A stretch of DNA of 64,000 bases from Acanthopleura granulata. Its lineage: Eukaryota > Mollusca > Polyplacophora > Chitonida > Chitonidae. The position numbers were made by a program, and so were the translations under genes. Where the stretch lies: the NCBI GenBank assembly GCA_016165875.1, contig JABBOT010000014.1:10449871-10513870 (forward strand), given 5' to 3'. This document shows, one piece after another, positions 9,101 through 58,200 of the stretch. Positions within the stretch are counted from its first letter, which is position 1. Each line of letters begins with the position of its first letter. The notes beneath the pieces are model-generated. The model did no database searches, was not told where the DNA came from, and saw only the letters and a list, made by a program, of their open reading frames with translations.

Positions 9101-12100
9101 AGGCACCCCATAAATATCATATCAAAGGCAGATACATCAAATTACATTGGTCATTCATAACCTGATCCAAACGGTAGAGAATTTTCAATATATACACATC
9201 TCCTACCCACAAGGTGGCACACAAGTGGTCTTCAACAAATGTTAGACTGTACAATCAGTCCCACAAGTGTTGTGAAGGGTCACTTTCCCCGAGTTCCCAC
9301 AAACACTTAGAGTAGGGAATCTACAAACCCTCCGCCCAAGGCCAGTTCAGAATCCACCCCAAATGTAAAGTAAGCACTATTAAAAGAGAATATACTGGAG
9401 AAGTTATATATCATGACTTGTGTATATGCCATGGCTTAATAAAGAAGCTTTGCAAGCTGCAACCTAAATAGAAGTATTGGAAAATCACGCTTTTTCTGAA
9501 AATTTCTGCGATATAGGGACAAAATCCTAATTAATCAACTTAAGGGTAGCCCATTCTCTAAACTGTGACCCAAGAATATCCATATGACATTAGTATCGTA
9601 TTGCAAATACATCAACTGGCTGCAGCAAACATTGGTTTCAGATGTTCAATGTTTCTGTGATGTCACATCACAACTGTTTCTGCAGAGAACAGAATGAAAA
9701 GTAAGCGTCAATTCTGCAGGAGCTTTGCCAAGCGACCTTCTACATCCATATATGGTGATGCTCATTACTTTTCACGCATACATTAAATTTCGTACTTCAG
9801 GTCGACATAGACCTCCTGTAATTCTCCGACGTGTCCACATATCTGCAAGGCATTTATTCAAGCGTATTCTGCAGGCATTTATCTTGTGTAGACGGATAAA
9901 ATTATACTTTTTGTGAAGACCTGAAACTGGCAAATCCCACCAAAGTAGTTTTGTTTCCAAAATCAAATTAAAAATACGCATGAATTGCACTGAAATTTGC
10001 TCTTTCATATGCAAAAGGTTGAGGAAATGGGGTACTCAGAGAATTAAGTGTAAAAACACTGTGTAAAAACAGAAAATCACAAGAGGCCAAGGGTGCCATT
10101 TTCTGAAAGTGCATAAGTCACCAATTGGACGAAATATACAGATCGTTCAGTTTGAACTGTTAAACTGAAAATCTGCCATAATTCTGGGGTATAGCCTCTA
10201 CAACTCCTACACAACCAGTTCCCCCTTCTTACACACAAGTCAGCGTGCTTCTACTTGCTCGCACCTGCAATTTGTAGCTATTTCCTCCAATAAGGTGTCA
10301 TGCTGAGATAAGCAGGTACAAGAACCAAGATTCAAATGTTCCAGCTTTTGACATCCTCTGAAACATATAAATACCATTTCAACATGCTTAATAAACAATT
10401 CGCACATCTAGATTGATTCTGATATACAGTAATTATCAATATATATACATAATATCAATATTATTTCACTTGAAAACAAACAAGTTGGTTGCATCAAGGC
10501 TTCTTATGATATAAATAAATCAAATACGATATGTAAAGTTATTCCAAATTGCAGGACAAAAAAAAAAACCACTGTTCATACAGCTGTACCATTTTAGGAA
10601 TAATTTTACTAAATACTCTGCGTTCTTTAACTTTAAAAGAAACTGTGGGCTCACAGAAATTAGGACAAGGATATTGTCAAATAATTTTACATAAATTAAA
10701 TATTACTGCAAAAAAAAAAAAATAAATGAAAAATAAATTAAAAAAAAATACCTGACAATTTTTTTGACAGCCACGGCATCCACTTGTGTCCGGTAGAGAT
10801 TCAGTCTCCGTAATGAGGTAAGTTTGCCAAGTGATGATAAACCAGGAGTGCCCACCTCCTCATACGAGCTTAAGTCTAACTCTGGGAAAACAACAACAAC
10901 AACTCTGTTCACATCTACTGTAATTCACCTTAAGTTTAGCAGTTTTCAAATGACAGATATTGCTAGATTATGACTGATTCATCTTCCTAACAGGGCTACT
11001 TAAGATTTTCGTTTTTTTTTTTTTGTGAAGTCTAATGTCTTAGAAGAAAAAAATAACTGTTGGCATTAAAAGTATCATGGTAAGGCCATCATATGCTTCT
11101 GAGAATGCATTATTACATACTAAACCCTATGTGAAATAGAGTCACTCAAGACATGAAAACACAATTAAATTGTTTTCAAGACACTACAGCTATACCACAA
11201 TACACTGGTTAAGAGTAGAAAACCTTCTGATCACAAAAATACCTTCCACAGGTACAAAGCATCACAGGTATTCATACCCTTCATTTCTTTTCACATTTAG
11301 GCCCACTCTTTGATTTTATATACCCTAAATGACGTAAAATTTCTACCATGATTAAGTTGCTCATTTTTTCTGATTCCTAGATTTCTACTGACATTAGAAA
11401 GATGGTTTTTGAGGTTTGATTAAAAGGAAAGATAGTATTCTGCTGGAAAAAACTAAGTTTCAGCATTAAGGTACGAAAAAATTCACATAAATTTGCCTCT
11501 AAAATGCAATTTAGGGGGCACCAAAGTTTAGGTCATTTACAGTATTTGATTGCAGTTTAACAGGATTCTCAAGAATTTTTCACTTACATCTGAGATACAG
11601 TACACATTAAGGGCCCATTTTTTCCTGTGAAACAAATGCTTTGTCCTCATAAGCCAGCAATGGTCTTTTTTTTTTTGTTAGGATACAATCATTAATAAAG
11701 CACTTGATGAATTTAATCAGAGGTGACATACCCTGTAGTGCTGGACAGAGGCTGGACAAGTGGAGAATGACAGAATTGACAAGATCACAGCTGACATAAA
11801 TCACAGGTGACATTACCTTGTAGTGCTGGACAGAGACTGGACAAGTGGAGAATGACAGAGGAATTGACAAGATCACAGCTGACATAAATCACAGGTGACA
11901 TTACCCTGTAGTGCTGGACAGAGACTGGACAAGTGGAGGATGACAGAGGAATAGCTGGCATAAATCACAGGTGACATATCTTGTAGTGCTGGACAGAGAC
12001 TGGACAAGTGGAGGATGACAGAGGAATTGACAAGATCACAGCTGACATAAATCACAGGTGACATATCTTGTAGTGCTGGACAGAGACTGGACAAGTGGAG

Positions 12101-55200: not shown

Positions 55201-58200
55201 AGAGGGGGCGATTAGGCAGAAAAACAGGTGAGTAGACAAAAGGCCCCTTCCCGTCCCATCATACCCTGGGAGACCAGCTGTATGAGAGGGGGCGATCAGG
55301 TACAAAAACAGGTGATTAGACCAAAGTCTCCTCCCCCTCCCATCATACCCTGGGGACCAGCTGTATAAGGAGTGAAGAGGCAAAAAAAACTTTGGAGTAG
55401 ACCAAGGTCCCCCCCCCCTCCCATTCCCATCATACCCTGAGAGACCTGCTGTGTGATGGGGCGATTAGGCAGGAAAAGAGGTGAGTAGACAGCAGTCTCC
55501 CTCCGCCTCCCATCATACCCTGGGGCACCAGCTGTGCCAGAGGGGGGTGATTAGGCAGGAAGACAGGTGAGTAGACCAAAGTACCCCCCCCCACCACCAC
55601 CACCATCATACTCTGTGGAACCAGTTGCACAAGAGGGAGCGATTAGGCTGGAAAAGAGGTGAGTACACCAAAGTCCCGCCGTCTTCCCATCATACCCTGG
55701 GGGGCCAGCTGTACAAGAGGGGGTGATTAGGCAGGAAAACTTAAGTTCTCCCTCCTCTTTTTCCCCTCACCATCAAATTAGTCAAATTTTAACACCTGAT
55801 TCTGTGCTCGGATTGAGGTTTACCATCAGACTTGAAATATTTTCTTTTCTGAGAATGAGTTTGTGAAATACTGTGAATCACCTAGACCTTTGCCACCAGA
55901 GGAGCATTTTAAGAGTCATGTTCATATCATTAAATATAATTTCTGGTGCTGAAGAATACATTTTTCCAGTAGGGTAACCGGCTTCAAAATACTCGTCTAA
56001 AATCAACGGAACTCTCGGAATGAAGGAATATGAGCACTATGATCATGTACAAAATTTAAGATCTCTTAGCGAAGGCCGTTGGTACAGTTAGCCCACTTGA
56101 GAAAATAGTACTCTAATTAAACAGCAGTGGTCACAGGGGGACATGTATATTCCTGTATCCCGCAGCTGATTCAATGTCTGTTGACTAGGTTATCTCCCTT
56201 TGCTTGGGGGGTGTAAATAACAGCGTCCATGTAGTAATTCAGCGGTACTTCAGCCTTGTGCACACAAATGATGGGTCTCTTTTGTTGAAAAAATGTTTTC
56301 TTCTAATGTCACCCAGTAACCATTGTGACAGGAAATGTGAACATCTGGTCTCATTAGCCATCCCGTTGCACTTGAGGGGCACAAATGGCCCAGTATATTT
56401 CTGTATAAGTATAAATCATGTAGCTAATATTACCAGTATTGCAGCTCAGATATCTTCATGGTGCATATGCATAGGTTCTTATGTGTATTAAGTGCCATCA
56501 GCACTTCAGTTGGTCATGAAATAGTAGGAGATGAACTCTTAAACTATACTTATATTTCTGAAAAAAAATGAAAACATTTGTTTACTTTATTGAAGTGTGT
56601 GTGTATGCTTTCGTGAAAATTTCAATAGAGTTGTGCTACAGATCCATGGTGCACCAAATGTTCTGTTGACAGGTAAAGGCTGGTACAGGTATATCAAACC
56701 TGGATCAAAGACGCCTTATGTGGATGACGAAGTTACAGATATTATCAAAAAACACTGCCAGGAAATTGGGATGGAAAGAAGAGCTATCTCTACTCAGGTA
56801 AGCTGAGAGATGATCTCGTTGTTTGTGTACATGAGAACCCAATGTCCTCAGAGGTTTTTATGGCTGCTAAATGTAAATGCACCCACCTTAATAGGGGTGT
56901 TTCAAGTTCTAACTCTTTTATCGCTAGAAGGTTTGTGAACTTAAGAAGTTACTGAAGAAAAGAAACATCATTTGTACCTCCTGAACATGGTGAGATGGGT
57001 GATCAGTAAATATAAGTCAACAAATGTTGCCTAACAGTTTTGTCAAATCATATGATACAGTAAGACTGTTTTTACCTTCAGCAACAAAAGAGTCTAAATT
57101 CGAAACTCGCCTATTGCTACAGACTGGAATGCCTTAGTTTGATTTTATTTATTTGATTGATGTTTTACGCTGTACTCAAGAATATTTCACTTATCTGACG
57201 GGTTGCCTTTGTAGCCAAGTGGTTAACATACTAGCACTAATTTCTGTAGCCATCTAAGGCGGTTAGCTGGTTTTACATGTATTGGGTTTTTTTCCTTAGC
57301 TGATGTGAAGCTGACTAAGTTGTGTTAGCCAATTAAGGTGTGTTATCTGACTAAGGTATATTAACCGGCTAAGTTGTGTTAGCCAGCTATTAAGGAGTCA
57401 GTTAGCCAACTTCCATAAGCAGACTGTGAAAAGAACTGACTGATCCATTTCAGAAAAGTAAAACTGTCTAATGCTTAGCTGATCAGCTTACTATAGACAG
57501 TCATGTGGCCGATCTGTGTCAATCTTCTTGACTGAATCAGTGTTGATAATTTTGTTAGATTACCTTCAAAATATAAGTGAATTAAGCGGCTGTATAGTTT
57601 TCAGAAAAAGATGGTAATTTCTTCTCCATTTCCTTTTTTGACACACTTTTGCAGACAAAGGGCTATAAGTTTTCCAGCAGATAGACGAGGTGAAAACATC
57701 CACAATGTGTGGGTTTTGGTTAATTGTGAACCTCAAAGACAAGTTTCATGTGCGAAAAGAAGCTGATTTACATGTATTCCTATAGTTTATAGAATGAAAA
57801 ACAGATAAACTGTTGGAGCCTTCGTGGCAAGCAGGGGCTGTCGCCATTCTAGTGCAATGTAATGACCTCTCTTCCTTTCACCAGTGTGGTCGTTGTGAGT
57901 TCAAATCCAGCCTAGTCTGACTTTCTCTGTGGTCAAAACATGAACAGGCCCTCAAGTAACCTGCGGACGGTTGTGGATTTCCCCGGGGGCTCTGCTCAGT
58001 TTCCTCCCACCATAATGTCATATTTGAAATATTCTTGAGTACGGCTCATCACATAAAGTGATGAATAAATAAACTTTCAAAAATGACACTCTTAAAATCG
58101 AATTTGCTTGCTCCTAGCCATCTCAGCACATGATTATGGACTTCAGACCAGCTTTTCAAAGTCCAATGTTTTTACTTAATACATTTCCTTTGTGAAACGG

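Follow-up and report, generated by a model that had tools for sequence, protein, structure and literature searches.

Tandem arrays made of exon–intron junctions in the FBXL4 and EHHADH genes of the chiton Acanthopleura granulata

Why do several minisatellites of a single genomic region lie on splice sites? The question is raised by a stretch of 64,000 nucleotides of the Acanthopleura granulata genome (contig JABBOT010000014.1; hereafter the window), which carries FBXL4 on the minus strand, from about 27.6 to 3.0 kb, and EHHADH on the plus strand, where the placed exons span about 32.2–61 kb. Six arrays in these two genes are tandem copies of real exon–intron junctions. Such templating recurs across the genome, at about 2–4 times expectation and with modest significance, and involves a minority of arrays and of junctions.

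Six arrays on splice junctions of two genes

The exons of EHHADH other than exon 1 were placed with phmmer, by comparing translated frames of the window with solved peroxisomal bifunctional enzymes, and with tblastn; one further translated frame gave no match to these enzymes in the phmmer search. The exon numbering is that of a preliminary description of this DNA, with exon 1 unplaced. FBXL4 exons were placed by tblastn, and the identity of the gene was then confirmed by protein search. The best protein matches of both genes come from another chiton, Liolophura sinensis (79% for EHHADH; 81% for FBXL4, named 'F-box/LRR-repeat protein 4-like').

Tandem Repeats Finder (TRF) returned 68 rows in the window, and arrays with a period of at least 10 cover 13,728 of the 64,000 bases (21%). 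The preliminary description had proposed that the units of six arrays straddle real splice junctions. TRF shows all six near the places and with the periods given there, and the splice sites as well as the alignments with Liolophura agree. Four of the arrays are based on donors and two on acceptors. The arrays and the exons they copy are as follows:

11715..14978, minus strand: array on the FBXL4 exon 9 donor (TRF); 88-bp unit of about 64 bp exon end and 24 bp intron
14914..15023, minus strand: FBXL4 exon 9; authentic junction 14914/14913, TACAAG/GTAATG
18300..18979, minus strand: array on the FBXL4 exon 7 acceptor (TRF); 107-bp unit of about 71–74 bp intron end and 33–36 bp exon start
18263..18332, minus strand: FBXL4 exon 7; acceptor at 18332, ATCTCAG/GTTACT
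36375..36867, plus strand: array on the EHHADH exon 3 donor (TRF); 91-bp unit of 64 bp exon and 27 bp intron
36300..36438, plus strand: EHHADH exon 3 (phmmer); donor at 36438, TGCCAG/GTGAGT
38720..39833, plus strand: array on the EHHADH exon 7 acceptor (TRF); 30-bp unit of 20 bp intron end (pyrimidine tract and AG) and about 10 bp exon
39828..39974, plus strand: EHHADH exon 7 (phmmer); acceptor at 39828, GTGACAG/TATTGC
45568..48126, plus strand: array on the EHHADH exon 10 donor; 55-bp unit (54–55 by TRF)
45434..45553, plus strand: EHHADH exon 10 (phmmer); donor at 45553, GACAAG/GTGAAA
54139..55740, plus strand: array on the EHHADH exon 14 donor (TRF); 83–84-bp unit of 47 bp exon and 37 bp intron
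54033..54185, plus strand: EHHADH exon 14 (phmmer); authentic donor at 54185, AAACAG/GTCAGT

The FBXL4 exon 9 array also contains shortened variants of 75/76 bp and compound variants of 163 and 250 bp. In EHHADH exon 10, the exon copy stands immediately before the TRF start of the array, from which it has diverged. Because units and periods are unlike each other, each unit matching its own exon, the arrays represent six separate events, as had been proposed. A spreading transposon or introner is not indicated, as the six units differ in both period and sequence, although the units were not searched for across the genome. Most unit lengths are not multiples of three (88, 107, 91, 55, 43, 32, 31, 80 and 22 bp, as against 30, 75 and 84 bp), which is expected if the copies escape translation.

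When the exon translations were joined at the six junctions, all of them aligned without gaps to the Liolophura proteins, i.e. the coding sequence is unchanged there. At the FBXL4 exon 9 junction, for instance, the residues CPALQELDL are gapless in Liolophura FBXL4. No new introns were seen at the six array-bearing junctions. An Rfam search of the window at gathering cut-offs gave no matches.

Copies within the arrays and their surroundings

Copies were located by aligning the authentic junction, with 60 bases on each side, locally to the adjoining intron, and the resulting counts are lower bounds, as neighbouring copies can be missed. In EHHADH there are at least 4 junction-spanning copies for exon 3 (distal copies at +91, +182, +273 and +364), at least 17 for exon 7, at least 18 for exon 10 and at least 16 for exon 14; FBXL4 has at least 19 for exon 9 and at least 7 for exon 7 (five good and two partial). 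EHHADH exon 10 is the weakest case: beyond the first two, its listed copies (16 of 18) share no more than 55–60 of 77–82 bases with the exon copy.

The strength of the distal donors differs between the arrays. Among the listed copies they are weaker than the authentic donor in EHHADH exons 3 and 10, whereas in FBXL4 exon 9 twelve of 19 equal it and seven are weaker. In EHHADH exon 14, the authentic GTCAGT scores 8.5, and most listed downstream copies (to about 55658) score higher, 11 of them being GTGAGT with a score of 12.2. Reading through the authentic donor leads at once to an in-frame stop in EHHADH exons 3 and 14, so that use of a distal donor would truncate the protein; in FBXL4 exon 9, a stop follows after 26 codons.

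Chosen intronic copies, rather than every copy, were compared with one another and with the exon copy in five arrays, that of EHHADH exon 10 not being included. In three of the five, the intronic copies are closer to each other than to the exon copy, with copy–copy versus exon–copy identities of 0.959 vs 0.849 (8 copies), 0.949 vs 0.920 (10 copies) and 0.878 vs 0.738 (5 copies).

Two further arrays in FBXL4 are of a different kind. A 51-bp array at 8378-8643 in intron 11, about 120 bp upstream of exon 12, was considered as a seventh case, but a search of it for copies of the exon 12 acceptor found none, and it was left uncounted. Its decayed copies extend to 8277, and its consensus unit holds a near-perfect donor motif on the gene strand (CAG/GTAAGAG), yet no copy of the exon 12 junction. 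A 37-bp array at 15686-17064 in intron 8 is free of stops over 340–439 codons in all three plus-strand frames, presumably owing to repetition alone.

FBXL4 and EHHADH also seem to be adjacent in Sinanodonta woodiana (ACJMK2_023582/023583) and Potamilus streckersoni (CHS0354_043031/043032). In Liolophura, the matches to the two genes sit on contigs of equal size (32.8 Mb), and equal sizes were likewise seen in Lingula and Ptychodera. These are hints that the two genes form an old conserved pair. In the Liolophura FBXL4 gene model, an unrelated tail (residues ~532–696), for which PF02210 (laminin-G) is listed, replaces the last FBXL4 exon. The tail is probably due to a fused gene model.

Junction arrays compared with chance expectation

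The preliminary description held that six arrays starting at splice sites look like a rule. However many copies an array holds, it goes back to a single founding event, and the expectation was therefore calculated with arrays collapsed to one unit each. In an automatic test, the 40 bases at each of the 57 exon edges in the window were scored for ungapped self-similarity at thresholds of 12–24. Five edges matched at thresholds 12–20 and three at threshold 24; EHHADH exon 10 was missed because it is too diverged. The five junction arrays found automatically, or six by eye, compare with 1.1–2.5 expected by chance. With a one-direction control, the expected number ranges from 2.17 to 1.1, and the P values at thresholds 12, 14, 16, 18, 20 and 24 are 0.066, 0.035, 0.023, 0.013, 0.009 and 0.097. 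A stricter either-direction control at thresholds 14–20 gives 2.52–1.65 expected matches and P values of 0.107–0.024. Counting collapsed TRF arrays, five strict matches stand against 1.41, 1.21 and 1.11 expected at minimum scores of 60, 100 and 200 (P 0.015, 0.008 and 0.006), and there are six if arrays within 25 bp of an edge are allowed.

It is important to note that 17 of 23 merged arrays at a score of at least 60, and 9 of 15 at a score of at least 100, lie more than 25 bp from any placed edge, and that 51–52 of the 57 exon edges have no such array. With most arrays off the edges, and with arrays occupying 21% of the window and 6% of the 189 kb of myosin loci described below, a general duplication process appears to be at work. 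Moreover, the window was chosen for these arrays; its P values therefore flatter the claim, and it is no independent test of itself. What stands of the supposed rule is an excess of about 2–4 fold with founders collapsed, whereas the argument ignored the high density of arrays, and the independent tests are borderline.

An independent sample was taken from myosin genes. Myosin-head exons were located genome-wide (83 matches in 606,523,666 bases on 87 contigs), and 168.5 kb plus the search loci were read. Exon matches within the fetched DNA gave 144 predicted edges, which were set by a splice-site score of our own and were not checked singly. Of these edges, 8 matched at threshold 12, 7 at 14–16, 5 at 18, 4 at 20 and 2 at 24. 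At threshold 16, the seven matches compare with 1.84 expected under a laxer control (P 0.003) or 2.86 under a stricter one (P 0.026), the expected range at thresholds 14–16 over both controls being 1.84–3.4. Under the stricter control, P is 0.056, 0.090 and 0.151 at thresholds 14, 18 and 20 (7, 5 and 4 matches), and under the laxer control two matches at threshold 24 compare with 1.05 (P 0.28). By TRF, 4, 3 and 3 strict matches were counted versus 1.27, 1.04 and 0.84 expected (P 0.040, 0.088 and 0.054). When splice-score cut-offs were applied (127 edges), there were 6 matches at 14 and 16, 4 at 18, 3 at 20 and 2 at 24; we abandoned the cut-off after seeing that it excluded the C17 acceptor 2284.

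Nine myosin arrays were wrapped by eye, and five are clear: C17 donors 4968 and 4157, C17 acceptor 2284, C18 donor 8458 and C5 donor 4144. The first has a 43-bp unit of exon end and GTGAGT in about 15 repeats, and at C17 acceptor 2284 the doubled segment consists of the acceptor and the first part of the following exon (GESGAGKT). C6 donor 9585 is a probable junction array, C2 acceptor 5363 and C9 donor 6924 are doubtful, and C9 donor 1634 was rejected. C2:21738001 donor 10251 and C6 acceptor 2376, which are among the seven matches at threshold 16, come from the automatic test alone. Templating on junctions thus recurs in myosin genes, which are unrelated to FBXL4 and EHHADH and lie elsewhere in the genome.

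Tandem pairs of donor 9-mers were also counted genome-wide, and compared with pairs of the same 9-mer reversed after normalisation per single occurrence. Loci were compared only across the range common to both lists, which comprised 100 of the 195, 669 and 312 donor rows and 50 of 50, 100 of 130 and 60 of 60 control rows. For CAGGTAAGT at spacing 20–50 (195 vs 50 rows; 8,521 vs 4,585 singles), 33 versus 14 loci among the matches listed correspond to a ratio of 1.27 (P 0.28). For MAGGTGAGT (669 vs 130 rows; 14,636 vs 9,111 singles, i.e. 1.61-fold), the compared range covered C1 plus the initial 1.57 Mb of C2, and 20 versus 3 loci among the matches listed give a ratio of 4.15 (P 0.008). Taking both motifs at spacing 20–50 together, Fisher's method yields P 0.016. 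At spacing 51–81, CAGGTAAGT gave 19 versus 3 loci among the matches listed (312 vs 60 rows), a ratio of 3.4 (P 0.025). As its two spacings overlap in loci, we also formed their union, which is 24 versus 5 among the matches listed (2.58-fold, P 0.030). The excess of single motifs over the control, a rough measure of true donors, amounts to 38–46% of occurrences, and the rate at true donors could therefore be higher still. On the other hand, real donors are genic whereas control motifs lie anywhere, and some of the difference could stem from arrays being denser in genes. The pattern GTRAGTN8GTRAGT gave 365 matches as against 942 for its reversed control; as that control is a widespread repeat in its own right, the pattern could not serve as a test.

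Among the tandem donor arrays found by motif, the units at C1:17113964, C1:38128275, C1:265391 and C2:1573011 are open up to the donor by eye. The last of these has a 42-bp unit in more than 25 copies in a row.

Origin of the arrays and comparison with mirage minisatellites

The six arrays probably arose by short local tandem duplications that happened to span junctions and were tolerated by splicing, in a genome rich in minisatellites. A duplication wholly within an exon would alter the protein and would likely be lost. One across a junction would likely be neutral, because splicing would go on at the exon-proximal copy and leave all the others within the intron. With two copies present, slippage or unequal exchange would expand the array and partly homogenise the copies inside the intron, the exon copy meanwhile being kept under coding constraint. 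What has been measured is the presence of the copies with their junctions, their recurrence in other genes and the excess of about 2–4 fold, of modest significance; that the arrays arose by duplication, that splicing takes the exon-proximal site and that the arrays are neutral is what we infer.

Several observations weigh against this scenario. In EHHADH exon 14, 14 of 16 listed distal donors outscore the authentic one, so that faithful use of the first site needs showing and cannot be assumed. The read-through frame of EHHADH exon 10 is open across the whole stretch translated. EHHADH exons 3 and 14 do not exhibit the homogenisation pattern, with copy–copy versus exon–copy identities of 0.868 vs 0.891 (4 copies) and 0.965 vs 0.961 (12 copies), respectively. 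Furthermore, purely random founders predict too few matches: 1.1–2.5 versus 5–6 seen in the window, and in the myosin sample 1.05–3.4 versus 2–7 by self-similarity and 0.84–1.27 versus 3–4 by TRF. Since junction matches exceed the random-founder prediction, some extra preference for junctions may exist.

Such a preference would follow if splice junctions were mutational hot spots for tandem amplification, with R-loops, spliceosome-bound nascent RNA or RNA-templated repair as putative routes. The excess always has the same direction, in the window, in the myosin genes (7 of 144 edges vs 1.84–3.4 at thresholds 14–16) and among the donor motifs listed (4.15-fold for MAGGTGAGT, 3.4-fold for the wider spacing of CAGGTAAGT), and the dilution of true donors among motif occurrences could hide a higher rate. 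Yet the narrower spacing of CAGGTAAGT reaches only 1.27-fold, the myosin test is non-significant at several thresholds, and the position of the junction within the unit varies, the exon share ranging from about 1/4 to about 3/4 by eye; we therefore consider a hot spot doubtful. Equally tentative is the broader view that junctions in chitons generally attract duplication at several times the rate of neighbouring introns, with several percent of exon edges carrying or adjoining arrays copied from their junction, and with lancelets subject to the same process. If this were true, the hot spot would continually supply duplicated splice sites and new introns. Conversely, arrays could be so dense that six matches in a picked window need no preference, which the 1.1–2.5 matches expected there, the choice of the window for this very feature and several non-significant tests would allow. 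However, two samples outside the discovery, the myosin loci and the donor motifs, lean the same way (combined motif P 0.016 at spacing 20–50), and chance alone seems rather unlikely. Taken together, the modest excess may reflect a real preference.

Selection that maintains or promotes additional splice sites, as backups or to regulate splicing, would preserve GT and AG, and these are indeed intact in 3/3, 13/13 and 11/12 copies examined of EHHADH exons 3, 14 and 7, and in 5/5 and 15/19 of FBXL4 exons 7 and 9. Compared with the remaining columns of the unit, GT/AG is better conserved in EHHADH exons 3 (1.0 vs 0.973) and 14 (vs 0.968) and in FBXL4 exon 7 (vs 0.900), but no better in FBXL4 exon 9 (0.895 vs 0.973) and EHHADH exon 7 (0.917 vs 0.926). 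In addition, AG is lost in older copies of EHHADH exon 7 and FBXL4 exon 7, distal donor strength falls in EHHADH exons 3 and 10 while it rises in exon 14, and distal sites in EHHADH exons 3 and 14 would run into stops. Selection is thus very improbable as the cause. An assembly artefact is more improbable still. According to passages of PMC7850002, the assembly mixes short reads, nanopore reads and optical maps, and array copy numbers may be wrong; the arrays, however, hold many diverged copies each and differ between genes, and re-sequencing confirmed one lancelet case, as a passage of PMC3902484 reports.

Each array lines up many donors or acceptors that are nearly identical and of which a single one is correct, and is a natural test of how the spliceosome selects its sites. 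EHHADH exon 14 is the sharpest case, as its real donor looks weaker than most of the distal ones listed. If the junction excess is true, it points to a testable way in which splice sites become duplicated and introns are gained.

Comparable structures are known from lancelets. In their globin genes, tandem duplications of exon–intron boundaries at 5' and 3' boundaries were named mirages; regular splicing was suggested by reverse transcription PCR, haplotypes differ in length, and a model of intron gain was put forward (passages of PMC3087553, which also gives somatic instability from work on the Adh3 mirage). Further lancelet mirages are in PGBD5 and troponin C (PMC3902484, likewise in passages). 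In titles, abstracts and passages of open-licence papers, we found no report of such arrays in molluscs, and none outside lancelets beyond a human case. In the latter, minisatellite expansion at exon–intron boundaries of segmental-duplication genes can shift the exon–intron structure, and the repeats often alter exons or create introns (PMC2812944, in the passages seen), whereas the protein junctions of the chiton are unchanged relative to Liolophura. Copies with splice signals within genes also recall intron gain by tandem duplication of AG/GT segments (Rogers model, as cited in a passage of PMC3087553; the potato RdRp case, PMC4974935), although the six chiton junctions show no new intron.

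The chiton arrays resemble the amphioxus mirages of Adh3, the globins BflGb6 and BflGb9, PGBD5 and troponin C, as those passages describe them, in that the repeats span the exon–intron boundary at donors or acceptors and units measure tens to ~160 bp in several copies (PMC3087553, PMC3902484). In the lancelet mirage clusters the edge copy is partly outside homogenisation (PMC3087553); three of the five chiton arrays compared show this pattern and two do not. In contrast, the chiton belongs to a different phylum, its arrays have more copies (up to ~40 by TRF), and there are six cases in two neighbouring genes. As they fit the anatomical definition, the chiton arrays may be classed as mirage minisatellites, in a new phylum as far as the open literature goes. 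That a mollusc has mirages in several of its genes suggests a tolerance or process extending beyond a single lineage.

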